A stretch of DNA of 43,450 bases from Clostridia bacterium (GTDB lineage Bacteria; Bacillota; Clostridia; UMGS1840). Under the pieces are notes generated by a model. That model made no database searches. It saw only the letters and a program-made list of their open reading frames with translations, and was not told where the DNA came from. Below, piece by piece: positions 5,291-42,846 of the stretch. The stretch is taken from the NCBI GenBank assembly GCA_017468465.1, contig JAFUIN010000005.1, forward strand, positions 1 to 43,450. The letters are read 5' to 3'. Position 1 is the first letter of the stretch, and each line of letters opens with the position of its first letter. A program made the translations under genes and the position numbers.

Positions 5291-5293
5291 ACT

Positions 5294-5842
5294 CTATTCC
5301 TTCGGTTCTGAAAACAACTTCATAATTTCCTGATTGGTCTGTTGATAGATTTCTTCAATGTGCTCCTGAAAAAACTGACACACGCGGATGGCATGTTCCC
5401 GACTGGGCACCAGCACATTGATGGAAAACTGTTCCTGATCGTTTTCCAAAATTTTAATTCCCGCCAGGAATTCTCCGCCCTCAGGCGTAAAATCTGCAAT
5501 TACTGCAGTTTTTGGCTGTCGACTTTTTTTCTTTTCCAGAATGGCATTGTCTAATTTTTTGCGGATTAAAAGAGGAATTTTTGTCTGAAAAAAGCCTGCT
5601 GCCTCCTTACCCTCATCGGTCAGCTCATAATAATGCTTCCCATTATCCATAAACATACGAAGCTGCTCCATTTTTACCAGCTCGTAGATGTTATACTGCA
5701 ATGTAAAATAATCTACCTCCTGCCCCTCCATAATCAGCTTGGTCAGCTCCGGATTGGTCAGAGATTCGCCATATTCTCCGGCAACATACAAAATAATGAG
5801 CCGCAAAATAAAATCATCTTGCAATATTTTTTCAAAAGGCAT
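5294..5842 (-). CDS. DUF4364 family protein
   Basis: The 182-residue protein starts MPFEKILQDDFILRLIILYV, continues with a winged-helix-like segment (LTNPELTKLIMEGQEVDYFTLQYNIYELVKM, then YYELTDEGKEAAGFF) and ends in an alpha/beta half. This is the arrangement of DUF4364, a clostridial family with a predicted N-terminal winged helix and no established role. I chose the ATG at 5840-5842, which has AGGAGGAAGAAAC in front; the longer frame to 5911 would overlap the preceding ABC-F gene. It lies between the ABC-F gene and ygiQ with short gaps, suggesting one transcript. Confidence 0.87.
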   Translation of the reverse strand: MPFEKILQDDFILRLIILYVAGEYGESLTNPELTKLIMEGQEVDYFTLQYNIYELVKMEQLRMFMDNGKHYYELTDEGKEAAGFFQTKIPLLIRKKLDNAILEKKKSRQPKTAVIADFTPEGGEFLAGIKILENDQEQFSINVLVPSREHAIRVCQFFQEHIEEIYQQTNQEIMKLFSEPKE

Positions 5843-5876
5843 TGTTTCTTCCTCCTTTTTTCGTCTCAAAATTGAG

Positions 5877-7742
5877 TTATTCTTCTTGTGAAAGTGTCTC
5901 CCAGGTTTCATAAAGAGCGGTTAATTTTGCCTCCAGCTCTTCTAACAAATCGCATTTTTCTTTTAAGATGGTAAAATCGGATGCAATTTCAGGAGAGGCA
6001 ATCTCTGCCTGGAGTGTTGCGATTTCGTTTTCTGTTTTTTCAATTTCTTCTTCGGTTTTTCGGATGTCGTTTTTCCGCTTTGTCTGTGCGGCACGGTCTT
6101 TTTTGGAACGGTAAAAATCGTTTGCTTTTTCCGTTTTTTTCGGCGCCGTGTCGGAAAGCGTTTCTTTATGCTTTTCTAAATAATAGTCATATTTTCCGTC
6201 ATACACCACCATACCGTCAGGCGTCATTTCCACAATTTTTGTGGGAACTTTATTCAAAAGATAACGGTCGTGAGACACCATAATGACGGTGCCTTCATAA
6301 TCGTCGAGGGCTTTATCCAACACTTCTTTCGATGGTAAATCCAGATGGTTGGTAGGTTCGTCTAAAATAAGCACATTGCCCTCTTCCAGCATCATAATGG
6401 CAAATTTCAGCTTCGCCTTTTCGCCGCCGGAAAGCACCTCAACCTTTTTATAAACATCTTCTCCTGTTAAGCGAAGACTGCCCAGAATCCGTCGCAGCTC
6501 CTGTTCATATACTGTGGGAAAACGGTCCCATAATTCGTTGAGTGCCGTTTTTTCGGGATGAAGATTCCACGTTTCCTGCTCAAAATATGATTTTTTGACA
6601 CCGCCACCCCAGGAAACATTTCCCCTTTCATAAGGAAAGATGCCTAAAATAGCCTTCAAAAAGCTTGTTTTTCCGACGCCGTTGGCGCCCACGATGGCAA
6701 TTTTGTCGTTTTTGCGAACGTGTAAATTGACGTCCGGATTCAAAACGGTATCCTTCACCTTCAATTCCAAATTGGAAACCGAAAGCACGTCTTTGACCGG
6801 CTCGGTTTTGAAGGAAAAGTTCAAATGAATGGTTTTTAAGTAATCGGAAGGCTTTTCCATCACTTCCATGGTATCTAAAATGTGCTGCCGGCTTTTTGCA
6901 CTTTTTGCTGTGGATGCCCGCACCTGATTACGCGCCACATAATCTTTTAAGGATGCAATTTCTGCCTGCTGTTTTTCATATTCTTTTTCCAGATATTCCA
7001 ACTGTTGCGCCTTCAATACCACAAATTTAGAATAGTTTCCTTTATATCTGGTTAATTTTCCTTTATAAATTTCACAGATATCGGTGACACAGCGATCCAA
7101 AAAATAACGGTCATGAGACACCAGAACCAGAGCGCCTTTATAACCTGTAAGATATTCCTCCAGCCATTCCAGCGTCTTAAAATCCAGATGGTTGGTGGGC
7201 TCGTCCAAAATCAGCAAATCGGGCTCGGAAAGCAGCAGCTTTGCGAGCGCAAGCCTTGTTTTTTCTCCACCGGAAAGGCGGTCAACCGGGGTAGATAAGT
7301 CTCGCCCCATAAACCCCATTCCGTTTAAGACCGTATTGATTTTTACATCAATATGATATCCGTCTTTTTGTTCAAATATGGTTTGAAGCCTTGCATATTC
7401 TTTTTCATTTTCGGGGGAATCAGAGATTTTATGATACAAATCTTCTAATTTTTTCCCCATGGCAATCAAATCGGAAAACACGCTTCGCATTTCTTCCAGG
7501 ATAGAATTTCCCGAAGAAAGCCCGGCATTCTGATGAAGGTATCCAACAGATTTTTTGGAAAAAACCACTTCTCCTTCGGTGGCATCCAGCTCCCCGGTGA
7601 GTAAATTGAGCAGCGTGGATTTCCCCGCTCCGTTGGCACCTATCAGCCCGATTCGGTCTCGGTCTTCAATTTTCAGTGAAATATCGGTGAGAACTACTTC
7701 GGCTCCGAAGAACTTCGACACCCCTTCTAATGCTACAATCAT
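5877..7742 (-). CDS. ABC-F family ATPase (ribosome-associated, YdiF-like)
   Basis: The 621-residue protein has two ABC cassettes and no membrane segments, the ABC-F plan of translation factors that act at the ribosomal E site. Cassette 1 has Walker A GANGAGKST (35-43), signature LSGGE (156-160) and Walker B ILDEPTNHLD (178-187). A charged linker (about 245-300) follows, and cassette 2 has Walker A GANGVGKTS (352-360), LSGGEKAKLKF and ILDEPTNHLD. The C-terminal 80 residues are a Lys/Glu-rich coiled coil, as in YdiF/Uup. Whether it gives antibiotic resistance cannot be told from sequence; a housekeeping role is more likely beside metK and DUF4364. AAGGAA lies before the start. Confidence 0.95.
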   Translation of the reverse strand: MIVALEGVSKFFGAEVVLTDISLKIEDRDRIGLIGANGAGKSTLLNLLTGELDATEGEVVFSKKSVGYLHQNAGLSSGNSILEEMRSVFSDLIAMGKKLEDLYHKISDSPENEKEYARLQTIFEQKDGYHIDVKINTVLNGMGFMGRDLSTPVDRLSGGEKTRLALAKLLLSEPDLLILDEPTNHLDFKTLEWLEEYLTGYKGALVLVSHDRYFLDRCVTDICEIYKGKLTRYKGNYSKFVVLKAQQLEYLEKEYEKQQAEIASLKDYVARNQVRASTAKSAKSRQHILDTMEVMEKPSDYLKTIHLNFSFKTEPVKDVLSVSNLELKVKDTVLNPDVNLHVRKNDKIAIVGANGVGKTSFLKAILGIFPYERGNVSWGGGVKKSYFEQETWNLHPEKTALNELWDRFPTVYEQELRRILGSLRLTGEDVYKKVEVLSGGEKAKLKFAIMMLEEGNVLILDEPTNHLDLPSKEVLDKALDDYEGTVIMVSHDRYLLNKVPTKIVEMTPDGMVVYDGKYDYYLEKHKETLSDTAPKKTEKANDFYRSKKDRAAQTKRKNDIRKTEEEIEKTENEIATLQAEIASPEIASDFTILKEKCDLLEELEAKLTALYETWETLSQEE

Positions 7743-7759
7743 ATCGTTTCCTTATGCTT

Positions 7760-7797
7760 AAAACAGCCATAAGAGCATTTGTTCTCTATGGCTGTTT
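7760..7797 (-). terminator. Hairpin between metK and the ABC-F gene
   Basis: AAAACAGCCATA (7760-7771) and TATGGCTGTTTT (7786-7797) pair almost perfectly, with further AGAG/CTCT pairing. On the minus strand the stem ends in TTTT, so it could attenuate readthrough from metK. Confidence 0.65.
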
Positions 7798-7805
7798 TCT
7801 CTCTA

Positions 7806-8966
7806 TTATCTGTTGGAAAGTGCCTGTTTTAATGCTTCTACTTTATCGGTTTTTTCCCACAATACGCCCAAATCTTCTCTGCCCATATGTCCGTATGCGG
7901 CAAGCTGTCTGTAAATGGGTTTTCTTAAATCCAATGCTTCAATAATGGCTGCAGGACGAAGGTCAAACACTTCGTTTACAATGTCGGCAATGATTTCATC
8001 CGAAACAACCCCTGTACCGAAGGTGTCCACCATAACAGAAACGGGTTTTGCAACTCCAATGGCATAAGCAAGCTGAATTTCACAGCGTTTTGCAAGCTTG
8101 GCTGCCACAATGTTTTTGGCAACCCAGCGGGAAGCGTATGCCGCACTTCTATCAACTTTTGTGGGGTCTTTTCCGGAGAAGGCTCCGCCGCCGTGACGGG
8201 CGTATCCGCCATAAGTATCCACAATGATTTTTCTGCCGGTTAAGCCGGAATCACCCTGAGGTCCGCCCACAACAAAACGTCCGGTGGGGTTTACAAAAAT
8301 CTTGGTGTTTTCATCCATCATAGAAGCGTCGATGATGGGAGCAATCACATATTGTTTCATATCTTCACGGATGGTGGAAAGCTCTACTTCGGCAGAATGC
8401 TGGGTAGAAATGACAATGATATCAATCCGTTTGGGAATGTCGTTTTCATATTCCACAGTTACCTGCGTTTTTCCGTCGGGACGAAGATAAGAAAGGGTGC
8501 CGTCTTTTCGCACATCGGTGAGTTTTTTTGCCAGGCGATGTGCCAAAGAAATGGGAAGCGGCATCAGCTCGGGAGTTTCGTCGCAGGCGTAGCCGAACAT
8601 CATGCCCTGGTCCCCTGCACCGGTAGATTTGTCGTCGCCGGATACATCAACCCCTTGTGCAATATCGGGTGACTGTTCATCAATGGAAGTGATGACAGCA
8701 CAGGTGGTGCCGTCAAAGCCGTATTTTGCACGGTCATACCCGATGTCCAAAACCACTTCTCTTGCAATTTTGGGAATGTCCACATAGCCTGTGGTGGTAA
8801 TTTCGCCCATCACCGAAACCATCCCGGTGGTACAGGTGGTTTCACAGGCAACACGTGCCGAAGCATCCTGTGCTAAAATCGCATCTAAAATCGCATCGGA
8901 AATCTGGTCACAGATTTTATCCGGATGTCCTTCTGTTACAGATTCCGAAGTAAATAATTTTCTCAT
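7806..8966 (-). CDS. metK: S-adenosylmethionine synthase MetK
   Basis: MetK makes S-adenosylmethionine from methionine and ATP in the cytosol. The 386-residue sequence has the usual length and hallmarks: [17 protein letters not shown] near the N-terminus, [16 protein letters not shown] in the middle and [19 protein letters not shown] with the phosphate-binding lysines. AAAAGGAG lies before the ATG. Only 31 nt separate it from the upstream DUF486 gene, so there is no room for a SAM riboswitch here. It probably shares the transcript coming from mreB-mnmG-walRK-hslO, ending at the hairpin at 7760-7797. Confidence 0.98.
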
Positions 8967-8997
8967 AATTCAAATCTCCTTTTCCCATGGCAAACTT

Positions 8998-9342
8998 TTA
9001 CTTTTTGAAAATAAAGAACACTGCTCCCAACATACAGAGGAAAGCGTAAAAATAGTTCCAGGTGAATTTTTCTTTTAAGTACAGCACTGAAAAAACAGAA
9101 AACACCGTTAACGTGATGACTTCCTGAATGATTTTCAGTTGTGCTGTGGTAAAGTAGCCCGACCCCATACGGTTTGCCGGAACCTGAAAAATATATTCAA
9201 ACAAGGCAATTCCCCAGCTTGACAAAATCACAATCCAAAGAGCTGTGCTTTTGAATTTTAAGTGTCCATACCAGGCGAATGTCATAAAAATGTTGGACAC
9301 CAAAAGCATCAGAACAGGAATGGCAGGTCTTAAAAATTGCAT
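8998..9342 (-). CDS. DUF486 (DMT-like) small membrane protein
   Basis: The 114-residue protein has four hydrophobic segments (about 8-25, 32-52, 68-88 and 94-112). FMTFAWYGHLKF, GIALFEYIFQVPANRMG and LKIIQEVITLTVFSVFSVLYLKEK are characteristic of DUF486, which resembles half of a drug/metabolite transporter and may work as a dimer. Its substrate is unknown. An AAGGAGG site overlaps the stop of hslO just upstream, so translation is probably coupled to it. Confidence 0.9.
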   Translation of the reverse strand: MQFLRPAIPVLMLLVSNIFMTFAWYGHLKFKSTALWIVILSSWGIALFEYIFQVPANRMGSGYFTTAQLKIIQEVITLTVFSVFSVLYLKEKFTWNYFYAFLCMLGAVFFIFKK

Positions 9343-9355
9343 CGTATTTTCCTCC

Positions 9356-10240
9356 TTATCTGGTTACTATGCGAAGAAGCATTTCCAAATCTTCTTTGGA
9401 AAAATGATATTTCTTATTGCAATAATGGCAACAAACTTCGGTGGTTTCGTCTTCCTCTATCATCTTTTCCACTTCTTTTTTCCCCAAGCTGATGAGTGCT
9501 GTTTCCACACGGTAACGGCTGCAATCGCAACGGTACAAAGGCTCTTTTTTAGAAAGAATCTGATAATCAAAGCCTACAAGCAGCATTGATAAAATTTCTG
9601 CCGCATTTTTCCCGTCTGCAATGAGGGAAGAAATGGATGCAGGAAGATTTTTTACATTTTCTTCGATTTTATCAATCACATGGTCCGGTGCACCGGGCAA
9701 AAGCTGAATCATAAATCCCCCCGCCGACAAAATGGCAAAGTTCTGTGCCACCAGCACTCCAAGGCCCAAAACAGTGGGAATCTGCTCCGACTGCATGTAA
9801 TAATAAGAAATGTCTTCCGCAATTTCGCCCGAAATCAGCTCTACCGTGCCAACATAAGGCTCTTTCATTCCAATGTCACGGACGATAGTTAAGCTTCCCT
9901 TATGTCCCAAGGCACCGCCAACATCCAATTTGCCGTCGGCACGGGGCGCAAGCACCACATTGGGATTGGACACAAAGCCTTTCACTTCGTTTTTGCCGTT
10001 TGCTTCGGCAACCACATTGCCAATGGGTCCTTCGCTTCGGAATTGCACGGAAACACGGTCCGTTTCATTTTTCATATCATTTGCCAGAATCAATGCCGCA
10101 GTCAAGGTTCTGCCCAAGGCAGCTGAAGCAATTTTTCCGGTGCCGTGAAGCCCCTGGGCTTCTCTTACCACCTCGGTGGAGTTCACCACATAGGCTTTTA
10201 CATAGCCGTCTTCGGTAATCGCTCTGATGATTTCATCCAT
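9356..10240 (-). CDS. hslO: Redox-regulated chaperonin Hsp33
   Basis: HslO is a cytosolic holdase that is activated when oxidants release zinc from four cysteines. The 294-residue protein has the Hsp33 substrate-binding body (EGPIGNVVAEANGKNEVKG, the TVLGLGVLVAQN region) and the C-terminal zinc module: CDC at 238-240 and CHYC at 271-274. An AAAGG site lies 11 nt before the ATG. It sits just after walK, an arrangement different from the yycHIJ genes that follow walK in Bacillus. Confidence 0.97.
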   Translation of the reverse strand: MDEIIRAITEDGYVKAYVVNSTEVVREAQGLHGTGKIASAALGRTLTAALILANDMKNETDRVSVQFRSEGPIGNVVAEANGKNEVKGFVSNPNVVLAPRADGKLDVGGALGHKGSLTIVRDIGMKEPYVGTVELISGEIAEDISYYYMQSEQIPTVLGLGVLVAQNFAILSAGGFMIQLLPGAPDHVIDKIEENVKNLPASISSLIADGKNAAEILSMLLVGFDYQILSKKEPLYRCDCSRYRVETALISLGKKEVEKMIEEDETTEVCCHYCNKKYHFSKEDLEMLLRIVTR

Positions 10241-10278
10241 AGTGTTTTTGCCTTTCTTCTTCTGAAACGTGTGATCTT

Positions 10279-12075
10279 CTAAAGAACTTCTTCTGCCTGA
10301 GGCTCGTCCTGCGTAAGAAAGCTCTTTTCCACAGGAAGGGTAATCACCACTTCTGTTCCTTCATTCACTTTAGATGCCAAGGTGATTTCTCCTGCATGGG
10401 CATTTACAATTTCTTTGGCAATCGCCAGACCGAGTCCTGTGCCGCCCTGCTCACGGGACCTTGCTTTATCTACACGGTAAAACCGTTCAAAAATTCGTTC
10501 TACATCTTTTTCCGGAATGCCCATTCCATTATCAGCAATGCGGATAATGGCATTGTCGGACACATAGCTGGAATAAATTTTAATGTCACCGCAATTTGGT
10601 GTATACTTAATTGCATTGGAGACGATATTGATAATCACCTGCTGCATTCTGTCATAATCAATGGGAATTGCGGGAATTTCATTGAGCATCGTATAGGTGA
10701 GACTCTGGTTTTTCTTTTTCGCCTCAAACTGCATTTTCTCTGCAATGTCTCGCAAAATCGGCTCAAGGCTCATGCGGGTGAGATTCAGTTTGACCCCATT
10801 ATCCAGACGGGACAGTATGAGCAGGTCAGACACCAGACGAGTCATACGGTCGGTTTCCCGGTGAATGGTGTCCAGAAATTTCTCTTGCATTGCTCCGTCT
10901 ACTTCGCCGCTTTCCAGCGTTTCGATATATGCTTTTACGGTGGTTAAAGGGGTGCGGAGCTCATGAGACACATTGGCAACAAATTCCCGGCGGGAAAGCT
11001 CCAGTTTTCTGCTTTCCGTCACATTTTGCACATCCACAATGACGCCGCCAACCGAATCGTCGGAATATTTGAAGCTGCCGAAATGAAATTTCAAATAATA
11101 GTTGTTATAATCGGTCTCTTTGATGATTTGCTTATCCTGATTGAGATACAAAAAGTCGCCCAAAGAAATATCGGAAAAAACAGGGGAGAAAAACTCATCA
11201 AACCGAATATTTTCTTCTCGGATAGATAGGTATTTTTTTGCCGAGGGATTGATATGCAAAAGCTCTCCGTTGGTGTCAAAAGCCACAATACCATCGGTGG
11301 AATATTCCATGATTTTTTCCAGCTTGGTATTCTGAGAGGCAACCTCCTGCACAGTTTCCCGAAGGCGCTGTCCCATGGTGCGGAAGGTGTTGGCCAACAC
11401 CCCGATTTCGTCTTTGGAGGGAGATTCTTCGCCAATTTCAAACTCGCCCACTGCAATTTTTTCTGCACGGTCGGTTAAGTTTTTAATTGGCGTGGTAATG
11501 GTTTTGGAAAGCAAGTATCCCAATACCACAGAAATTAGCAACGCTGCCAGAAGCGCCTGCAAAATTACCGACAGCATACTGCCGGAAAACTTGTTCATTT
11601 CCTCTTTGGTTTCATAAATGTATACAATATAAACAGGTCCGTTTTCTCCCATAATGGGGTAAGCATATTCCATATATTTGCCGGTAGAATCGGCAACATT
11701 TCCTACCTGACCGGACAATGCTGTCAAAATATTGTCCGATACTTCAATTTGAGTCAAAAGCTCGTCTGAACCGGCCAAAAGGCCTCCGTCCTGACCGTCT
11801 AAAATAGCATAGTTACGGTACGAATCCACTCCGATTCGTCCCGATGCCGCCTCCAACAGCTCCGATAGCTTCTGAAATGACTCTTTTGATTCTGCTGCTT
11901 CCTCCAACTGGGGAATAAAATCCTCGGTGAACACGGCAGTGCTGATTTGCGACATGAAATCAGAATAATAAAACCGTGTTACATTGGTAACAATGAAGGT
12001 TCCCACCGTCAGCATTACCGATAAAATAACAAGGATAAAAAGCAAAACTAATTTTGTTTGAATACTTTTGAACAT
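10279..12075 (-). CDS. walK: Cell-wall two-component sensor histidine kinase WalK
   Basis: WalK (VicK) senses the state of the cell wall and controls WalR. From the ATG at 12075 it is 598 residues: TM1 (8-30), an extracytoplasmic sensor domain (31-166), TM2 (167-189), HAMP (190-240), PAS (about 255-355), HisKA with phospho-acceptor His371 in VSHELRTP, and a HATPase with DNGMGIPEKDVERIFERFYRVD and GTGLGLAIAKEIV. A TTG twelve bases further upstream is open but less plausible; GGGG lies 7 nt before the ATG. walR ends 27 nt upstream. Full length and all catalytic boxes present. Confidence 0.96.
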   Translation of the reverse strand: MFKSIQTKLVLLFILVILSVMLTVGTFIVTNVTRFYYSDFMSQISTAVFTEDFIPQLEEAAESKESFQKLSELLEAASGRIGVDSYRNYAILDGQDGGLLAGSDELLTQIEVSDNILTALSGQVGNVADSTGKYMEYAYPIMGENGPVYIVYIYETKEEMNKFSGSMLSVILQALLAALLISVVLGYLLSKTITTPIKNLTDRAEKIAVGEFEIGEESPSKDEIGVLANTFRTMGQRLRETVQEVASQNTKLEKIMEYSTDGIVAFDTNGELLHINPSAKKYLSIREENIRFDEFFSPVFSDISLGDFLYLNQDKQIIKETDYNNYYLKFHFGSFKYSDDSVGGVIVDVQNVTESRKLELSRREFVANVSHELRTPLTTVKAYIETLESGEVDGAMQEKFLDTIHRETDRMTRLVSDLLILSRLDNGVKLNLTRMSLEPILRDIAEKMQFEAKKKNQSLTYTMLNEIPAIPIDYDRMQQVIINIVSNAIKYTPNCGDIKIYSSYVSDNAIIRIADNGMGIPEKDVERIFERFYRVDKARSREQGGTGLGLAIAKEIVNAHAGEITLASKVNEGTEVVITLPVEKSFLTQDEPQAEEVL

Positions 12076-30500: not shown

Positions 30501-30580
30501 TTGTGTTTTTATAAAAAGTCCTTCATCTTATGGAAGATAAAAGCTATTTCTATACCCCTGTTTTGAAATTTTTTCAAAAA

Positions 30581-31412
30581 CCCCTTCACTAATTATCATT
30601 TAAAACGCATTTCTACCAGTGTGTTTTGAAAAATTTCCCCTCTACTCTTATATACAGCAGACTTTTTATGTATTTTAGCAAATATTTTTTCTCTACTATT
30701 CTATATAGGGAGGTTTTTTCGATTTTTATGAACAAAATTTAAAATTTTTATAATTTCCCCTTCACTCTTATATAAGGCTGACTTTTTTCAATTTTTACAA
30801 CCAAAATTTTATATTTTTTTAAACTCCTCTCATATAAGGACAAAAAACATCAGTTTCTAAATCCTCAAGATGAAAATTTTACAAAATCATAATATTTATC
30901 CCTTCACTAATTATCCGTAAAAAGGTATTTCTACCACCCTGTTTTGAAAATTTATCCCTCTACTATTCTATATAGGGAGGTTTTTTTGATTTTGAGTAAC
31001 AAAATTTACAATTTGTTAATATTTCTTCTTTTACATAATGCGGAATTATAAGATTTTTACAAACTTATTGCGAAAAATTTATAAAAACCTTCTCACTAAT
31101 ATATAAAGCGAACTTTTTCTGATTTTCAGCAAATATTTTTTGAATTATCCCCCTATTAATATATAAAGCTGACTTTTTTGCGATTTGGAAACCATAATTT
31201 TCATTTTATAAAAGTCCTCTCATATATAAGCAGAAAAAATTGCATTTTCTAAACCCCCTAATTGAAGGTTTTACAAGATTGTAAAATAATTCTCTTCACA
31301 TATTGCCGTTTTGAACACGATTTTTAACCCCTATAAATCAAAAAACATCCCTCTATTAATATATAAGGCTGACTTTTTTGGAATTTCACCAAAAAATTTT
31401 AAAAAAATATTG
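30581..31412. repeat. Array of about 13 degenerate AT-rich direct repeats
   Basis: Unit starts that I can align are near 30581, 30637, 30691, 30757, 30823, 30899, 30955, 31023 (weak), 31088, 31149, 31214, 31291 and 31348; spacing is 54-77 bp. The best-kept core reads CCCTCTATTAATATATAAGG, then GCTGACTTTTTT. A 29-bp stretch at 30691-30719 recurs exactly at 30958-30986. Units at 30757, 30823, 30899 and 30955 correspond to those at 31149, 31214, 31291 and 31348, giving a higher-order period of about 392 bp. There is no gene. Iteron-like protein binding sites are one reading. Confidence 0.8.
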
Positions 31413-31429
31413 ATTTTCCTTTTTTGAGG

Positions 31430-32521: not shown

Positions 32522-33271
32522 CTATCCATTTTTACAGAATATTTTATTTGCATTCATTGATAGCAATAACATATCTGATATCGATACATTTTCTGTGTGT
32601 TTTCTAAGGAATTCTTTCATTTTATCAAACCAATTATTTTCCTTTGCGATGCTTTTATCGTCAATGTTGATTCCTTTATACTCGTAAGCAAGAATTTCTC
32701 CCATGAGATGCATAGTATAATAGATTTTCAAATGATAGTCTTCATGCCCGTTAAATAGCGTGTTAAAATCTTCGATTCTTTTCATACTATCATTGATATA
32801 CTGCTGAAAATACGGCTCGGGTAGCCTTTGAGCAAATTCCAACATATAGACATATCCTTTATATCTTGCGTGAAATTCTGTCCAATACCAAAAAGGAATA
32901 TTATGTAACATCTCATAAAAGTTATTTTCTTTTATAATTGGTAGATAATCATTAAAATCTTTGACATGTGTTAGTTCATGAACCAATGTTTCTATCCAAA
33001 GAAAGTTTTTTGTGAAATCATCATTCTTTATCAAAACTGTAGCTGTATTGTTTTTAAATAGAAGTGTATAACCGGTACACTCAAGTAATTGATTTTTATT
33101 AAAATGCTCTTCTGTAAATAGGGTTGGTTGTAGTTCTTTTACCTTTTGAAATATGTTATCAGTAAGAATAATATCATTCAACGGGAAATTAATACCAACC
33201 TTTTCCTTTTCAAAAAACAATTCAATTATTTTATTAAAGGTATTACTTGAACTTTCGTCTGTAATTTGCAT
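32522..33271 (-). CDS. HExxH-motif putative zinc metallopeptidase
   Basis: The 249-residue protein has LWIETLVHELTHVKDF with H98-E99-x-x-H102 and WTEFHARYKG at about 130-139, whose Glu132 could be the third zinc ligand, so a gluzincin-like or related fold is plausible. There is no signal peptide, so it should act in the cytosol. The start chosen (33271) has AAGGTGG 12 nt upstream; the open frame extends to 33361 but would overlap the previous gene by 56 nt. It is the last gene of the Type I restriction operon, 34 nt after the HEPN-like gene. Family not recognised; protease activity is inference. Confidence 0.7.
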   Translation of the reverse strand: MQITDESSSNTFNKIIELFFEKEKVGINFPLNDIILTDNIFQKVKELQPTLFTEEHFNKNQLLECTGYTLLFKNNTATVLIKNDDFTKNFLWIETLVHELTHVKDFNDYLPIIKENNFYEMLHNIPFWYWTEFHARYKGYVYMLEFAQRLPEPYFQQYINDSMKRIEDFNTLFNGHEDYHLKIYYTMHLMGEILAYEYKGINIDDKSIAKENNWFDKMKEFLRKHTENVSISDMLLLSMNANKIFCKNG

Positions 33272-33305
33272 TTGCTTTATTATCCACCTTACATAATTTT
33301 CAGAT

Positions 33306-34493
33306 TTAATCCTTTTCCATTTTTTCTTTAAGACATGCATCGCAGATACATGACTCTGCATTTTTCATTGGTCTATCACAGTCAGAACAAAAAGATATTT
33401 CATATCCCGAAAAATTGGAATCGCAGTGAAAACAATGGTATTTGTCCGTTTCACGGTCATATACTAATTGATTTTCATCACAATCCGGACAGTCATATAG
33501 TGGGAACTCACCTCCGTCTTTCACACATTCATACCCACTTATCCCAAGTTCTCTCTCAATAAATTCATCTGCTTTATCTCTATATTTGTAAAGCAAGTAC
33601 GAATCTTCTATAGGGCAAGCATCTTCATCATTGCCTGTCATCCTATTGTAATAGTGACAAAGGGCTATATGTAAGTCTTTGATATGTTCATATCCATCAT
33701 ATTCCTTAAAGGAAGATGTTTTAATTTTGCGTAGCCAATTAAGTTCAGTTTGAGTTAATGAATAAATATTTATAAACTCTTGTGTTATTTGATCGTCTGG
33801 ATCATAATAGCCTCTTATTTCAGGATCATAAAAATCCGAATTAGTTAATGTTTCAACATACAATTTAATTATTCCGTCTTTCAAGAGATCGAAAATCTGT
33901 TCAATTTTGCTATTGTACTGTTGAATTTCATCCAAAAACAAGTTATCAGAAGTAAGAAGTAATCGACCATTTGCATGAGCATAGATGTTTCTTGATTTAA
34001 CAAATTTTTTGAGTTCTCCCAAAATTGAATCGTTTAAACCTATCACGCGCAACAACATAAACACATCGCTTTCACCTATGATAGCAAAACTGCCAAAATA
34101 GAGTTCTCCTCTTTTGGTATTTTCTTCGCTGTAAAATTCACTTTTCCGCTCTTTAAGCAAATAATAAATAGCCTTGTCCATTTCTTCTTTGTGCAACATA
34201 TATATCTTGAGTAGCACAAAATATATAGAAGTCATAAAAAGCATATGATATTGCACATAGGCAAATTGGTATAGTCCGTTTCTATAGCTTGTTTCAAGTG
34301 CAAGATACAGGGCTTCAATATACTTCTTTTCACTTTCATCTTGAAATACTTGAGGTAAAAACTTGTTAATTTCGTGAATTTGTTCAGGAAGTTCATCTTT
34401 TATAGTATAATCCTTTAATGAACTCAATGGTAGATGCCCTACTTTTTCAAGCATCTTTGAAACATATTCCTTGCCAATTTCAATGTTGTTCAT
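33306..34493 (-). CDS. HEPN-like protein with C-terminal zinc knuckles
   Basis: The 395-residue protein is helical in its first 215 residues, with long hydrophobic helices (YHMLFMTSIYFVLLKIYML at 82-100) and KKFVKSRNIYAHANG, in which R168-N-I-Y-A-H173 fits the R-x4-H motif of HEPN ribonucleases. A middle helical part follows. The last 65 residues have Cys pairs 335/338, 354/357, 369/372 and 382(384)/387, two zinc-ribbon-like modules. The ATG at 34493 follows the hsdMS stop by one base, with GGGGGG upstream. No family name is recognised. An RNase role is inferred from the motif and the setting in a restriction operon; HEPN domains can also be non-catalytic. Confidence 0.7.
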   Translation of the reverse strand: MNNIEIGKEYVSKMLEKVGHLPLSSLKDYTIKDELPEQIHEINKFLPQVFQDESEKKYIEALYLALETSYRNGLYQFAYVQYHMLFMTSIYFVLLKIYMLHKEEMDKAIYYLLKERKSEFYSEENTKRGELYFGSFAIIGESDVFMLLRVIGLNDSILGELKKFVKSRNIYAHANGRLLLTSDNLFLDEIQQYNSKIEQIFDLLKDGIIKLYVETLTNSDFYDPEIRGYYDPDDQITQEFINIYSLTQTELNWLRKIKTSSFKEYDGYEHIKDLHIALCHYYNRMTGNDEDACPIEDSYLLYKYRDKADEFIERELGISGYECVKDGGEFPLYDCPDCDENQLVYDRETDKYHCFHCDSNFSGYEISFCSDCDRPMKNAESCICDACLKEKMEKD

Positions 34494-34494
34494 A

Positions 34495-36981
34495 TTAATC
34501 CCCCCAAACCTCGGAGATTTTATCTGAAATTTTCTGTTCAAAGATTTCTATTAGACGCTTGTTTTGTTCAACAATATTAATTTCAGTATTTATACTATCA
34601 ACTATGCGTTTTTGTGTTTCCATAGAGGGGACAGCAATTTGTGCATTCAAAACATAATCTTTTGTAAGTCTTCGCAACCCACCCGTACCAGTCATATGTT
34701 CTTTTCCGTTATTGATAAAACGATCACTATTAATAGTATAATAAATGATTTCAGGCAATATTTTAGTTTTGTCTGGTCTCAATACATAAAATTCACTTGA
34801 TCCAAATCCAATTCCGTTGCACAAATTTCTTGCAATGCCTGATTTCCCATTTTCAAAACAAGGTGTGACTTTTGCGAGCAATACATCTTCGTCTCTAAAA
34901 TATGTATATCCGCTGTAAACCTCAGATAATGTTGCAACATTCTGTGGCATAAATAACATATCTGAATCACTGACATCTGACATCGGAACAAATGATACAA
35001 GAGTATCTGACGATACTTCTTTAACTTCAGATTTGACAGGGTTAAGTGAACATATTTCTTTTATAGTTGTAATTTCCCAATCAGAATCAATTTTGATAAT
35101 AGGCTTGTAATTATCAACTATTTGCTTTGCACCATCAATAATCTTTTGATAGCTTTCTATTTCTTCAACGATTTCTTTTTGAACAGAAAGTGGAGGTAAT
35201 GGTACAACAAATTGCTCTACCGTTGTTTTTCTGATAGAAGGAGGATTAGACTCTGAAGCCCATTGCTTTAAATCAATAGGTTTTAACATATAGTATAAAT
35301 ATTTTTTTTCAATTCTTTCATTACATACTATGCCCATAACATTGTTATCAAACAATGATTTTTTTGTGAGCATCCTTTTTTTGTTAGTAGCTATTGCTGC
35401 TCCTATTTTAGGAAAAATAACTGTATTTTCAGAGACAAGCATCCAATTTTGCTCGCCAAGCGTCTTTTCAGTTATGTAGTTATTGCTAATACCCATCGCT
35501 GATTCATTTCCATGCAAATTCATATCGCTAACTTTATAAAAAGGTATATCCCCTTCAAAATCGCCTTGTAACTCTTTGGGGAATCCATTGCCCGAAATCA
35601 CTTCAGCTATGTCACATATTTTTACTAATGGCCATTTACTATTAATAATAATTTCTTCTTTATATCTTTCTCCAACAAGAATATATTCCTGTTTAGAAAT
35701 CTTTTCTTTACTTGCCATAGTAACAAGTGGATTACTACTTACATCTTCACCTTTTTGATATGCTTTCACTATATTAATAATGTCAGGAATATCATTCTGT
35801 TTTATTTCTCTACGTTGGGCGCCAAGATCAAATCCATCATTCTTCATTTTAACAAAGAGAATGTCATCACGCATTCTTGCTAAAGGCTTATCAATTAATA
35901 AAATACTTGTTTTTACACCGCTGTAAGGATTAAATACACCTGCAGGTAAAGAGATTACAGCATACAGCAATCCATCATCTACAAGATACTTTCTTAATTC
36001 TTTATAAGCGTTTGCTGATTGAAAAACAATGCCCTCAGGAACAATAATAGCCGCTCTTCCTGTTGGATTTAAGTGCTCTGCAATATAGTCAACAAACAGT
36101 ACTTCTGCACGCTTAGCTTTTACTCTGTATCTGTTGTGTGGTATTATACCGCCCTTTGGAGTCATAAATGGGGGATTTGCAAGGATTATATCGTAATTAT
36201 CGTCCCATTTTTCATCACTTGATAATGTATCATACTCACTAATTTGCGGTTTTGTAAAACGGTGTAAATACATATTCACACGTGCTAATCTTACCATATC
36301 AGGTGATATATCATAACCTGCAAAGTTATCCGTTAGACGCTTTTTATCATCGGAAGTCAATGTAGACTTACCATTTTCATCTACATTTGTTTTTAATATA
36401 TGCTTGTATGCACTTATCAAAAAACCTGCTGTCCCGCACGCCGGATCAAGGATAGTATCATTCTTTTTTGGATTAACAATCTCAACCATCATGTCAATAA
36501 TATGTCTAGGGGTTCTGAATTGTCCTGCATCGCCCTGACTTCCCATAATCATAAGGAGATATTCAAAAGCATTTCCTAAATCCTCGCTGTTATCATAAGA
36601 AAACTCACCGATTTCTTTTAAAAACATATTGAGAGTTTCAGGGTCTCTATATGGTATATATGCACCTCTGAAAATATCTCTGAACAATTGAGGAATATGA
36701 GGGTTCATAGACATTTTATCTATGCCTTCTGCATAAACTAAAGCTCTTTGTTGTCCGCTGTTTTCAGAACTCATAAGGTTAGACCAAGCATATTTTTCAA
36801 ACTCGTCTTTGAAAAACACTCGTTCTCCACCGAATTCCATTGCTTCGATATCCATATCATCCATAAATTTATATATCATTGCAATGGTAATTTGTTCTAC
36901 CTGAGCTTTAGGGTCTGGTACTTTACCGACCAGTATGTCACGCAAAGTATTTATTTTACGTTTAACATCAAAATTTAACAT
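34495..36981 (-). CDS. hsdM: Type I restriction-modification methyltransferase-specificity fusion (HsdM-HsdS)
   Basis: The 828-residue protein joins two subunits that are normally separate. Residues 1-440 are HsdM: helical N-terminal domain, SAM motif DPACGTAGF (179-187) and catalytic NPPF (269-272), an N6-adenine methyltransferase. Residues 445-828 are HsdS: target recognition domain 1 starting WPLVKICDIAEV, a central coil after PLPPLSVQKEIVEEIESYQ, domain 2 starting WEITTIKEICSL, and a second coil after QKRIVDSINTEI. The recognition site cannot be read off. AGGAGG lies 6 nt before the ATG at 36981; the longer frame to 37011 overlaps hsdR. It probably carries modification and DNA recognition for the complex. 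Confidence 0.95.
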   Translation of the reverse strand: MLNFDVKRKINTLRDILVGKVPDPKAQVEQITIAMIYKFMDDMDIEAMEFGGERVFFKDEFEKYAWSNLMSSENSGQQRALVYAEGIDKMSMNPHIPQLFRDIFRGAYIPYRDPETLNMFLKEIGEFSYDNSEDLGNAFEYLLMIMGSQGDAGQFRTPRHIIDMMVEIVNPKKNDTILDPACGTAGFLISAYKHILKTNVDENGKSTLTSDDKKRLTDNFAGYDISPDMVRLARVNMYLHRFTKPQISEYDTLSSDEKWDDNYDIILANPPFMTPKGGIIPHNRYRVKAKRAEVLFVDYIAEHLNPTGRAAIIVPEGIVFQSANAYKELRKYLVDDGLLYAVISLPAGVFNPYSGVKTSILLIDKPLARMRDDILFVKMKNDGFDLGAQRREIKQNDIPDIINIVKAYQKGEDVSSNPLVTMASKEKISKQEYILVGERYKEEIIINSKWPLVKICDIAEVISGNGFPKELQGDFEGDIPFYKVSDMNLHGNESAMGISNNYITEKTLGEQNWMLVSENTVIFPKIGAAIATNKKRMLTKKSLFDNNVMGIVCNERIEKKYLYYMLKPIDLKQWASESNPPSIRKTTVEQFVVPLPPLSVQKEIVEEIESYQKIIDGAKQIVDNYKPIIKIDSDWEITTIKEICSLNPVKSEVKEVSSDTLVSFVPMSDVSDSDMLFMPQNVATLSEVYSGYTYFRDEDVLLAKVTPCFENGKSGIARNLCNGIGFGSSEFYVLRPDKTKILPEIIYYTINSDRFINNGKEHMTGTGGLRRLTKDYVLNAQIAVPSMETQKRIVDSINTEINIVEQNKRLIEIFEQKISDKISEVWGD

Positions 36982-36991
36982 AATTAGCCTC

Positions 36992-39520
36992 CTACATAAA
37001 CCTTGAAACATTTACATTATCATTGACATAATCAACAATACTGAGCATAGACTCTTTGCCAAGTCTTTTTAAGTCGGACATTGTATATGTGCTGACTTCT
37101 GTACCTAAAAGCTGATACTCACCGTCTTCAATAGCTCGTCTTACATCTTTATCGGTTATATAAGTTTCAAAGAATTGTTTTATATCCCAATATTTTTCCT
37201 GTGGGACTGTTCTTGTGAGCATAAATGATTCAAATTCATCTTCTACAAGTTCCTTTTTACTCTTAAAGAACGGCAACACTCCAAATATCTTGTCGATAAT
37301 TTCTCTTGCAGTAATTCGTCTGTCACTACCGATTGCCCTACGAAGTTTATCCCAAGTATAATATTCGTTAGGTTTATTCATTATATTTTCATCAATATAA
37401 GTAATAACCGCCTGATAATTGCCTTGTTCGTACTGTTCTTTAGCAATCGGATCGTCTTTAACTGTTTCTTCAAATTTATCAAAGAACATTCTGTCAATCT
37501 TCATACCTTCAAGACCTATTTTAGTTTCGGTCATGGAAGCTAATGGGTCAGGGTTAAAGTTCTCATAATCTTCCGTCTGTGGAGGCGGATCGCCGGGAAT
37601 TCCACCTGCAGACTGTGCACGTGGTAATTTTATGATTTCATCGTAATCAAATTTTTCTTCAAAATATTCACAGTTACCAAAGAAATCAAACAACTTAAAT
37701 GTTGTTTTTTCTTCCTTATGCTCTTCAATAACTCCATTTACCTTTTCCTTATAAATAAAGGTTGCTTTTCTTGTTCCTCTACCTTTTATCTGAATGAAAT
37801 CGGTAGGAGAAAAAATAGGTCTAAATAAACCGATGTTAAGCAAATCTTCACAGTCATACCCTGTTGTCATCATGCCAACAGTGACACATATCCTTGTTTT
37901 TGAAGATTTATACCCATCCAAAAACGTAGTTGTTCCGCTTAAGTTGTTGTTTTGGAAATTCGTAGTATAAGTTTGTGCGTTCATAACATCAGATGTTATT
38001 TGCATTGCAAAATCAGAGCAATATTTATCAGCGAACATTTTATCTGCATATTCATTAAGTAATTGTGTGATTTTTGATGCATGTCTACGGCTAACACAGA
38101 AAATAATACCCTTACCAATTTCACCAGTTATCGGGTCTTTTAATGCATTATCCATAAAGGTTTTCACAAATACTTTATTAGTTGTTTCTGAAAAGAATTT
38201 GCGTTCAAAATCTCTTGCGAAAAAAGTTTCTTCTTGTTCTTCGTCTTGCTCATCTCCGGTTGCTACAACGGCATAACCTTCTTCTGCAAGTAGTTTGGTT
38301 GTAATCTCAGTTCTTGCATCAACAACTGTAGGGTTGATCAAATATCCATCACGAACTCCATCTAGCAATGAGTATCTAAATGTCGGTTCGCCACTTTCGC
38401 AGCCAAAAGTCTTATAACTATCAAGGAGTTGTCTCTTTTCCCATGCTCTTGGGTCAGTAGTTTTCAGTTTTTCAATATCGACATTCTTTATATAATCTTT
38501 TGGGGTAGCTGTGAGACCTAATTTGTATCCTAAGAAATACTCAAATACAGCTCTACTGTTACCATTGATTGAACGGTGACTTTCGTCTGCAATAATCAAT
38601 GAAAAGTCAGTAGGTTTGAAGAACTTTTTATATTTGTTATTTGCTACAAGTGTTTGTACTGTTGACACGACTATTTCAGCTTTACGCCAATCATCTGTAT
38701 TCTCCTTAAAAATAACAGTTTGATAATCGGGTGTGAGGTAATTTTGAAAGTTTTTCTTTGCTTGATTTTCTAGCTCTATTCTATCTACAAGGAACAGAAC
38801 TCTGTTAGCATTTCCGCTTCTCAAAAATAACCTGATAACAGCAGCAGAAGTAAGAGTTTTTCCTGTTCCTGTTGCCATTTCAAACAAGAAACGCTGATTT
38901 CCTGCTTTAACTGATGCTTGCAATGCTTTTAATGCGTTAACCTGATATGGTCTTAAGAAACGGAGTCCAGTATCAAAGATAAATTTCTGTCTTGTCTGTT
39001 CATTTTTATATTCAGGAGCTTCTGCATAATTAGGGTTCTTTACAACGGCTATGTAATCGCTTTTAATTTCTTCGTTGTATAATCTTGCAGGATTGGTATT
39101 AAACGCTTTACTGTCTCTTAAACTCTCATAACTTGGGAATGCAGTTATAATTTGAGGGTTGCCCTTTGTAATATTCCAAAAATAATGCTGATTACCATTT
39201 GATAAGATAACATATTTAACATAGGTTTCTTTCGCATATTTTCTTGCTTGTTCCTTTCCAATAAGTGGGTCTTTAAATTCAGACTTTGCCTCAAGCACAA
39301 CAAAAGGTTTTCCGTTTTCGTCAAGTAGCAAGTAATCAATAAAGCCACCTGTTCTTGATTCAAAATCATCTCCCATGTCATCAATTTGCTTTTTTGTATT
39401 CTTTACATTTGGCTCAACTTGGATATTGGCGGCTCCGTTTTCGTCATCAAAGAAACGCCAACCGGCTTCTTCAAGTAGTTTGTTTATTTTTATACGAGCC
39501 TTAGCTTCTTTTGCTTTCAT
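36992..39520 (-). CDS. hsdR: Type I restriction enzyme R subunit
   Basis: The 842-residue protein is the ATP-driven translocase and nuclease. A PD-(D/E)xK nuclease lies at the N-terminus (Asp62 in GGFIDYLL, E77-A-K79). Then come the helicase motifs ATGTGKT (216-222), DESH (312-315), GLTATP and QIKGRGTR, and an EcoEI-like C-terminal domain. The sequence is intact and of typical length for the shorter HsdR group. AAAGGAG lies before the ATG. It is followed by the hsdMS fusion after 10 nt, so one transcript is likely. Confidence 0.96.
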   Translation of the reverse strand: MKAKEAKARIKINKLLEEAGWRFFDDENGAANIQVEPNVKNTKKQIDDMGDDFESRTGGFIDYLLLDENGKPFVVLEAKSEFKDPLIGKEQARKYAKETYVKYVILSNGNQHYFWNITKGNPQIITAFPSYESLRDSKAFNTNPARLYNEEIKSDYIAVVKNPNYAEAPEYKNEQTRQKFIFDTGLRFLRPYQVNALKALQASVKAGNQRFLFEMATGTGKTLTSAAVIRLFLRSGNANRVLFLVDRIELENQAKKNFQNYLTPDYQTVIFKENTDDWRKAEIVVSTVQTLVANNKYKKFFKPTDFSLIIADESHRSINGNSRAVFEYFLGYKLGLTATPKDYIKNVDIEKLKTTDPRAWEKRQLLDSYKTFGCESGEPTFRYSLLDGVRDGYLINPTVVDARTEITTKLLAEEGYAVVATGDEQDEEQEETFFARDFERKFFSETTNKVFVKTFMDNALKDPITGEIGKGIIFCVSRRHASKITQLLNEYADKMFADKYCSDFAMQITSDVMNAQTYTTNFQNNNLSGTTTFLDGYKSSKTRICVTVGMMTTGYDCEDLLNIGLFRPIFSPTDFIQIKGRGTRKATFIYKEKVNGVIEEHKEEKTTFKLFDFFGNCEYFEEKFDYDEIIKLPRAQSAGGIPGDPPPQTEDYENFNPDPLASMTETKIGLEGMKIDRMFFDKFEETVKDDPIAKEQYEQGNYQAVITYIDENIMNKPNEYYTWDKLRRAIGSDRRITAREIIDKIFGVLPFFKSKKELVEDEFESFMLTRTVPQEKYWDIKQFFETYITDKDVRRAIEDGEYQLLGTEVSTYTMSDLKRLGKESMLSIVDYVNDNVNVSRFM

Positions 39521-40516: not shown

Positions 40517-41422
40517 TTACTCTTCTGTATTGTAAAATTCATCTAATACATAAGTTTTAACGGGTGTTATGTATAACTCGTATTTAATAACCAACTTTAC
40601 CAAATCATTTCCGTCAATTAATGTAATAGGCGAACCCTCTCTTGCTGCTTGTCTTGCAGAATTGGTAAATCTTCCATTGGTAATAAAAACGCCATAATCA
40701 GCTTGATATTTATTCATTGCACCCAAAAACTGGTTAATTTCCGGTTCTCTTACGGGGGCTACATTATATCTTTTGCATTGAATAACAACTCTAGTTGTTC
40801 TGAAGTCATTGACATCAGTATGATAACCATACCCATCAATCCCACCATCATTACTGATTTGAACACCTTTTTCTGTAAATTCCACACCCATACGATTAAG
40901 CAACGCTCGTGAAAATGCTTCAAATTTTTTAGGAGACATTTTTGATATGGCTACAAGAAGTTTTTCCTTAAAATCATCTTTGATTTTTTCCTCTTCCTCT
41001 GGCTCTTCTTCATTATCGCTAATATCAACAATTTTGTTCTTTTTATTGTTCTGACTAAGTTCTTCCCAATGTTTTTTAGATGTTTCAATAATATCTTTTT
41101 GCACATCGAGGTTATCAATATCAAGGCATAATCCTTTGTCAGTCAATGTGATAGGAGAAGAATCTGTATATGTAAGTAACTTGTTAAAATATAAATCCTT
41201 AATGGCAAAATTGAATTTAAAATTAAATTCCTTATATTCGCTACCGGTCTTTTTTGATTTCTTTACCATTTCGGCGTACTCAGCTATTTGGTCATCCAAA
41301 TCAGCAATTCGTTCTTTAATTTCAGACCTTTCTAATTGTCCGCCAGCTCCCTGAAGGACTTTTAATATAGGTTTTATAAGGTATGCAATTTTACCTTCTG
41401 AAGATAATTCTTTTATATTCAT
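40517..41422 (-). CDS. Mrr-type restriction endonuclease
   Basis: The 301-residue protein has an N-terminal winged-helix Mrr-like domain (residues 1-125), an acidic linker (about 132-150) and a C-terminal Mrr catalytic domain: MSPKKFEAFSRALLNRMG, GGIDGYG with Asp196, VVIQCKRYN with Q215-C-K217 and YGVFITNGRFTNSARQAA. These are the PD-(D/E)xK active-site parts. Type IV enzymes of this family cut methylated DNA. AAAGGAG lies before the ATG. It may be an independent restriction gene next to the Type I system. Confidence 0.92.
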   Translation of the reverse strand: MNIKELSSEGKIAYLIKPILKVLQGAGGQLERSEIKERIADLDDQIAEYAEMVKKSKKTGSEYKEFNFKFNFAIKDLYFNKLLTYTDSSPITLTDKGLCLDIDNLDVQKDIIETSKKHWEELSQNNKKNKIVDISDNEEEPEEEEKIKDDFKEKLLVAISKMSPKKFEAFSRALLNRMGVEFTEKGVQISNDGGIDGYGYHTDVNDFRTTRVVIQCKRYNVAPVREPEINQFLGAMNKYQADYGVFITNGRFTNSARQAAREGSPITLIDGNDLVKLVIKYELYITPVKTYVLDEFYNTEE

Positions 41423-41549: not shown

Positions 41550-42188
41550 TTAATACTCCATCAAATCTTCCATTTTGCAACCCAGGACTTTCGCGAGGTT
41601 ATTGACAGTTTCCATTTGTGCTTTATTTATATCCTTATTTCTCTGTTCGTACATCTGGATAGAGCGAAGAGATACGCCTGATTGCTTTGCAAGTTCATTT
41701 TGGGTTATTCCACAGCTTTTTCTTATTACCTGAAGTCTTGTAGGCTCGTTTTTTTCTTTAATCATTTTCTCTACTGTATCTGCAAACTTTTCTTCAGGTG
41801 CTTCGTGGTAGAGGTCGAACATAACATCGATATCGCTCATTTTAACATGTCTTGCTATATTACTAAACGGTCTTTTGGAGTGCCATTGATAGAATGCAAG
41901 TATCCATCCGCACCAATAATCTCTATGCTTGTTTATATTCTCGCTGCTTGGCGGAACAAGTCTTTCTATACCTGCTTCTTTTAATACTTCTTCTACAAGT
42001 TCGGGACCGGACATTCCCATTATATATTTGGGATTTCCGTTACCAAATTCTTCAGCAATTCCTGTAGATATAAATAATTTCAGGAATTCGTCCTTATCCA
42101 TATTCAAATCACTTGCGACGTAATCAAAGGCATCACCCAAGTTATTCATGGCACTGTCGACATACATTTCATCGTAAGCGTGAATCAT
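41550..42188 (-). CDS. HTH-domain partner of the DUF3990 protein (putative antitoxin)
   Basis: The 212-residue protein has an N-terminal helical domain (residues 1-140, including YWCGWILAFYQWHSKRPFSNIARHV) and a C-terminal Cro/C1-type helix-turn-helix (RKSCGITQNELAKQSGVSLRSIQMYEQ). The ATG at 42188 has AAAGGA 9 nt upstream; the TTG nine bases earlier overlaps that site. It overlaps the end of the DUF3990 gene by 20 nt. DUF3990 and HTH partner genes occur as pairs in Bacillota. The palindrome in the shared promoter suggests that this protein autoregulates the pair. Confidence 0.85.
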   Translation of the reverse strand: MIHAYDEMYVDSAMNNLGDAFDYVASDLNMDKDEFLKLFISTGIAEEFGNGNPKYIMGMSGPELVEEVLKEAGIERLVPPSSENINKHRDYWCGWILAFYQWHSKRPFSNIARHVKMSDIDVMFDLYHEAPEEKFADTVEKMIKEKNEPTRLQVIRKSCGITQNELAKQSGVSLRSIQMYEQRNKDINKAQMETVNNLAKVLGCKMEDLMEY

Positions 42189-42846
42189 TATTATCAATCC
42201 TTTCCCTGATTATATCACGCATAAATAATCCGTTAATATCATCAACCTCTTGCTGAAGTCTGAACTGCTTATTAGCTTCTTCATTTCGTTTTTTTCTCTT
42301 GATATAATATTCAGCACTGTCAGCAATTTCATACTTTTGGAATTTGATTGCATCAAATGCTTTTTCACTCTTTAATACAATCTGCTCACCGAGCTTCCCG
42401 AGTTTCATTGCCTCGGATAATTGCTCAATTGATATCTGGTTATTCACGAAAGCTCTTGCGAATGAGAAGTATGAGTCATCTGCACGGTAGCCTGTGATTA
42501 TATCATAGTTTGATATGTCAGGCAGGAAGTTATTTAACAAATAATTTCTGCCTTGCTTCGACACAGCAGTTGATACTCTGAAGTTTCTGTTATTGGCAAG
42601 AACAGCAAGCCAGTTAAGTATCGTATATTCATCACCCGATAAATCAAGTGTAGTGAGTCCATCTATATTAAGTTCATAGCAGTTAGCATATCCATCTTTG
42701 GCAGGTTTCTGACAAGCCCATTCCTTTGCAAGTTCCAAAGTTTCTGTGCAATAGAATCCTAAGCCATAATCATTATTCTCTTTGCCTAATCCGAATACAG
42801 GCTTTTCAATTATTTCCGGAGAGCCATGCCATATTATTTTTTTCAT
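42169..42846 (-). CDS. DUF3990 family protein (putative ADP-ribosyltransferase-like toxin)
   Basis: The 225-residue protein opens with IIWHGSPEIIEKPVFGLGKENNDYGLGFYCTE, the DUF3990 signature that resembles ADP-ribosyltransferase folds: a HGS strand followed by a YGLGFY(C/T)T strand. A helical C-terminus (from about 150) follows. DUF3990 proteins are taken as likely toxins of toxin-antitoxin pairs; that is inference here. AGGAG overlaps a TGATA half-site before the ATG. Its promoter (42874-42902) is a perfect consensus with an operator inside the spacer. Confidence 0.85.
   Translation of the reverse strand: MKKIIWHGSPEIIEKPVFGLGKENNDYGLGFYCTETLELAKEWACQKPAKDGYANCYELNIDGLTTLDLSGDEYTILNWLAVLANNRNFRVSTAVSKQGRNYLLNNFLPDISNYDIITGYRADDSYFSFARAFVNNQISIEQLSEAMKLGKLGEQIVLKSEKAFDAIKFQKYEIADSAEYYIKRKKRNEEANKQFRLQQEVDDINGLFMRDIIRERIDNNDSRLR

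Follow-up and report, generated by a model that had tools for sequence, protein, structure and literature searches.

A putative HEPN ribonuclease gene linked to methylase-specificity proteins in restriction loci

HEPN proteins in restriction-modification loci

HEPN ribonucleases encoded in restriction-modification (R-M) operons, and the idea that they act as guards, were described in 2013 by Anantharaman et al. for at least 16 HEPN clades (AbiU2, AbiJ, ApeA, EC042_2821, pEK499_p136, MAE_28990 and others), standalone or fused, which were proposed to back up restriction by suicide as a further line of defence (PMC3710099). Fusions were reported to endonuclease, helicase and ATPase subunits only, and not to methylases, and the RiboL-PSP HEPN was listed either in fusion with endoRNase L-PSP or in an operon with ParB (PMC3710099). 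PrrC-EcoprrI is the classic restriction guard. The Type I enzyme EcoprrI keeps PrrC inactive (PMC3710099; PMC12707154) and, according to a 2022 paper, no HEPN-R-M complex of the PrrC-EcoprrI kind has been characterised beyond E. coli (PMC9296519). Accessory defence genes are also found inside the Type I operon of V. cholerae VPI-2, where TgvAB, which restricts in a modification-dependent manner, gives protection that does not require HsdR activity (PMC11411939).

The locus described here lies in a 43,450-nucleotide stretch of a Clostridia bacterium contig, which is referred to as the window. It resembles PrrC/EcoprrI (Type IC) in that a HEPN-type protein is encoded in a Type I locus and is proposed to be silent while the enzyme is intact, and it differs in having fused M and S subunits, an EcoAI-like HsdR and, in some family members, double zinc ribbons. 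PrrC senses nucleotides through an N-terminal ABC ATPase, whereas profile searches found no ATPase domain in the window HEPN protein or its relatives; because PrrC's ATPase is absent, the window protein is not a PrrC, and by analogy it probably works like one. With the clades of 2013 it shares the HEPN domain in an R-M operon, but its family occurs specifically in systems with an M-S fusion, tied to the modification/specificity polypeptide, which nuances the 2013 view of HEPN domains as not tied to methylases. The RiboL-PSP HEPN of that compilation is not listed with Type I genes, beside which the present family occurs, and, unlike TgvAB, the window HEPN gene does not represent a modification-dependent restriction system. 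The HEPN family, with the two architectures described below, looks like a new form of the known R-M-linked HEPN arrangement. The statement of the initial annotation that no described system has this gene set is accurate for the literal four-gene set only, since HEPN ribonucleases in R-M operons were published in 2013 (PMC3710099); we found no description of the M-S-linked HEPN family in the open-access papers searched.

The Type I operon and its surrounding island

The four genes follow each other on one strand with gaps of 10 nt (hsdR/hsdMS), 1 nt (hsdMS/HEPN gene) and 34 nt (HEPN gene/HELTH gene), exactly as initially annotated, the first gap being counted from the second ATG of hsdMS, where its relatives begin (Table 1). 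HsdR contains an HSDR_N nuclease motif (D...ExK) and an SF2 translocase (GTGKT at 218, DESH at 312), and matches Pfam ResIII (6e-39) and HSDR_N_2 (2e-7), as well as NCBIfam restrict_EcoAI with 3.6e-66, a value below that model's cut-off. HsdMS matches N6_Mtase (7e-59) and, in two stretches, Methylase_S (5.6e-25), and is the sole N6_Mtase-family match in the 1.5-Mb genome. Judged from their sequences, both HsdR and HsdMS are Type I proteins of the ordinary kind, and the presence of HsdR (nuclease motif and translocase), HsdM and HsdS places the operon among Type I restriction-modification systems.

Table 1. Features of the window, in order of position
Feature	Coordinates	Strand	Description
Large serine recombinase	28168-29962		Gene end 43 nt from tRNA-Leu (CAG), near the GC drop
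Repeat stretch	30539-31420		AT-rich, non-coding
HELTH gene	32522-33271	minus	249 aa; HELTH at 98-102; possible zinc metallopeptidase
HEPN gene	33306-34493	minus	395 aa; RNIYAH at 168-173
hsdMS	34495-36981	minus	828 aa; N6-adenine methylase (NPPF motif) fused to specificity subunit, two TRDs
hsdR	36992-39520	minus	842 aa; EcoAI/FtnUII-like Type I restriction subunit
Mrr-type restriction endonuclease	40517-41422		Upstream of the Type I operon
DUF3990 + HTH pair	41550-42846		Upstream of the Type I operon; matches PADLOC candidate PDC-M42A/B

The operon lies in a stretch of 32-35% GC, against about 44% beyond tRNA-Leu, and the point where the serine recombinase meets tRNA-Leu is likely the island boundary. 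Considering the low GC, the serine recombinase abutting tRNA-Leu and the Mrr-like nuclease and DUF3990 pair upstream, the operon seems to be part of an acquired defence island. We also noticed that the AT-rich stretch of about 900 bp, which separates the serine recombinase region from a gene coding for a secreted InlB-repeat protein, contains at least seven degenerate direct repeats of ~70 nt, with a core like CCCTCTACTATTATATAAGGCTGACTTTTTT.

The HEPN family and its restriction partners

The structure of the 395-residue protein was predicted with AlphaFold2 from a 37-sequence alignment, from which the Paracoccus plasmid relative was left out, and the model (mean pLDDT 86) displays a HEPN domain (about residues 43-205), a helical extension (to about 316) and a double zinc ribbon (about 333-390). 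The seven best VIA structural neighbours are all HEPN-fold proteins, including HepT toxins; two Thermus entries (ranks 2 and 3), whose titles give a gene name only, we take to be HEPN proteins. The best neighbour, 2hsb, has a modest Z of 7.8 (rmsd 3.9, 112 aligned residues), Csm6 appears at ranks 10 and 14, and the matches all fall within residues about 43-206. Foldseek alone gave nothing significant with this model, the HEPN neighbours being recovered after VIA re-alignment. In profile searches, the window protein by itself matched no Pfam HEPN model, and its relatives matched HEPN_RiboL-PSP (PF18735; 29 of 37, weakly, with a best E of 3.9e-5), HEPN_Swt1 (9 of 37), and MAE_28990 and Csx1/Csm6-type HEPN models. 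The R-x4-6-H motif is conserved, with Arg168 and His173 each kept in 36 of the 37 aligned sequences, and Tyr75, His83 and Glu141 are present in all 37. Since the Z is modest and Foldseek alone was not significant, the assignment draws its weight from three kinds of evidence that agree, predicted fold, motif and profiles, by which we identify the protein as a HEPN-domain protein. The HEPN fold and the conserved Arg/His pair proposed at the outset were thus borne out; the C-terminus, initially labelled a zinc knuckle, is instead a double zinc ribbon with CxxC pairs at 335/338, 354/357, 369/372 and 384/387. This ribbon is confined to a subset of close relatives and is an optional part of the family.

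The sole exception to the Arg/His pair, L045, has lost both residues (K...R, in KNEMFR), and in L046 the HEPN gene is broken. Both come from bins of one sample series (Th196P1) and retain the upstream M-S gene, a pattern that suggests decay of a toxin. No relatives of the HEPN protein were found in viral contigs; an unannotated 'Bacteriophage sp.' contig matches it at 27%.

Relatives of the HEPN protein, most of them from metagenome bins, are encoded at 41 GTDB loci, and the upstream gene is readable at 40 of these (L029 starts near a contig end). An HsdMS-type gene is located upstream of the HEPN gene in 39 of the 40, the exception being L039, and the three genes also stand in this order on a complete Paracoccus plasmid. 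A chance association is excluded by this number of loci and by the constancy of the upstream gene, and the relatives are not scattered away from restriction genes, an outcome that the initial annotation had named as contrary to its proposal. The M-S and HEPN genes are usually separated by -11 to +3 nt; at five of the 39 loci an extra gene intervenes, coding for an AbiTii-type protein, another helical protein or short membrane proteins.

These loci present two architectures, which have the M-S core in common. In group A, which includes the window, HsdR and an HsdMS of about 830 aa are followed by the HEPN protein, while in group B (L019-L043, L045 and L047) a single chain of ~970 aa, composed of an HSDR_N nuclease, methylase and specificity regions and devoid of a translocase, precedes a HEPN protein of 260 aa. 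At many group B loci a small winged-helix gene (~90 aa) precedes the single chain. We considered whether group B is a methylase plus HEPN arrangement without a nuclease, which is ruled out by the N-terminal HSDR_N domain with an intact D...ExK; nearly all members retain an undamaged nuclease motif, RPDY...EAK. No separate HsdR was observed beside the group B chain at the loci read, and neither query gave an HsdR match in the genomes of L019, L020 and L042, which are metagenome bins, so that this absence is weak evidence. Motif IV of the group B chains, which are candidate methylases, is NMPY (once NIPY), and not NPPF, in every aligned sequence.

HEPN distances correlate more strongly with M distances (r 0.96 in group A and 0.78 in group B; permutation p 0.0002) than with those of the swappable S part (r 0.56 and 0.30, respectively), a co-divergence that simple inheritance as one operon, with no physical contact between the proteins, would explain as well. 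From this genomic context, we regard the HEPN gene as a genuine partner of the restriction system. The restriction system, in turn, does not need the HEPN gene, because, among the five HsdMS systems found closest in a 386-genome sample, two (L062 and L064) are HEPN-less sisters. The C-terminal tail of HsdMS, KIxxxIxEVWGE, was regarded as a docking signal for the HEPN protein and was rejected as not specific, since it is also present in these two sisters. Conjugative plasmids of E. coli (about 52 records; L068, NZ_CP116482.1, positions 3806-11354) carry a related HsdR plus M system, with an M region 50% identical and a TrlF-family AAA-like ATPase in the slot of the HEPN gene.

Possible roles of the HEPN protein and the downstream slot

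We hypothesize that hsdR, hsdMS and the HEPN gene form one unit, a Type I system with a guarded putative HEPN ribonuclease that is released by inhibition of the enzyme, a reading that we consider probable on balance. The HEPN protein would be made together with HsdMS, given the 1-nt gap, and would be kept silent by binding of the methylase-specificity module. Blocking or depletion of the restriction enzyme by a phage or plasmid (e.g., by a DNA-mimic anti-restriction protein), or its being overwhelmed, would act as trigger; the released HEPN dimer would cut cellular RNA through Arg168/His173, and growth would stop before the invader replicates. The zinc ribbons may be an optional extension for RNA or partner binding. 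Since M-S is the constant partner in both architectures, we infer that the M-S core holds the ribonuclease. More tentatively, the ATPase-less proteins may represent an uncatalogued family that guards the M-S module itself, in the same way whether the enzyme is a translocating Type I complex or a translocase-less single chain, so that the sensor would be M-S and not the motor; we regard this as plausible, short of probable. Points counted against a guarded ribonuclease are the lack of a nucleotide-sensing ABC ATPase, the modest Z (best 7.8) with no significant match from Foldseek alone, the HEPN-less sister systems, the origin of most relatives in metagenome bins, and a co-divergence that operon inheritance could also produce. 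The layered defence initially proposed, in which restriction guards an RNase, agrees with the HEPN fold, the Arg168/His173 pair and the linkage to restriction genes, the ribonuclease itself being predicted. The pairing supports the known idea that restriction systems are guarded by a toxin, and a compact HEPN gene that lacks an ATPase and diverges in step with the methylase in both R-M architectures offers a simple testable system, raising the question of whether the guard watches the methylase-specificity core instead of the restriction motor.

The main alternative is that the M-S module, on meeting unmethylated foreign sites, switches the HEPN ribonuclease on in parallel to DNA cleavage. The constant partner is indeed the M-S sensor and not the HsdR translocase, no separate HsdR adjoins the group B chain, and the L019, L020 and L042 genomes gave no HsdR match with either query; nevertheless, the documented precedent, PrrC, is inhibition-released, and under such a mechanism entry of an ordinary unmethylated plasmid would arrest the cell, which makes this alternative unlikely. 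The tight translational coupling to hsdMS would also suit a HEPN protein without catalytic function that binds RNA or assists assembly and so adjusts the expression of hsdMS or the stoichiometry of the complex, the more so as zinc ribbons could bind nucleic acid and some motif-less HEPN families are thought to be RNA-binding (PMC3710099). The retention of Arg and His in 36 of 37 sequences, very divergent members included, and the persistence of HsdMS without the HEPN gene make such a role improbable. An independent abortive-infection gene, carried as unrelated cargo of the defence island, would be in keeping with the other defence genes around the operon and with independent defence genes embedded in other Type I loci, such as TgvAB (PMC11411939), but is difficult to reconcile with an M-S gene located upstream at 39 of the 40 loci that could be tested, in both R-M architectures, and with a HEPN protein that co-diverges with M, unlike the truly variable downstream genes; we regard it as decidedly improbable.

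A three-layer model, in which the HELTH protein acts as a protease that activates or controls the HEPN ribonuclease, relies on the gene order with its 34-nt gap, seen in the window only. The glutamate singled out in the initial annotation, E99, does belong to the HELTH motif (98-102), but no relative of this protein was found at other HEPN loci, and, of the two accessory genes, the HEPN gene keeps its place after an HsdMS-type gene elsewhere (39 of 40 loci), while the HELTH gene does not. Plasmids, phages and viral contigs gave no relatives either. When two samples of about 390-400 genomes were searched, one weak but clear relative was detected (L060, one in 398 phylum-level genomes), a 150-aa open frame that has HELTH and WTE[FY]HAR in common with the window protein and lies beside a tyrosine integrase; the 3.4 kb read around it contains no restriction genes. 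The window protein, a candidate gluzincin/ImmA-type metallopeptidase, matches no Pfam family at cut-off, and its single-sequence model has a pLDDT of 47, too low for a usable fold comparison. With the slot downstream of the HEPN gene filled elsewhere by HamA and HamB (Hachiman), SIR2 proteins, AAA helicases or a radical-SAM protein, the protease partner initially suggested seems highly improbable, and the HELTH gene is best described, on its distribution, as passenger cargo of the defence island in a variable slot and not as part of the system. In L009 (9198-12254) and L010 (9182-12226), this slot directly downstream of the HEPN gene codes for SIR2-domain proteins of ~1015 aa, for L009 with a Pfam SIR2_2 match, whose C-terminal half looks PIWI-like by eye.
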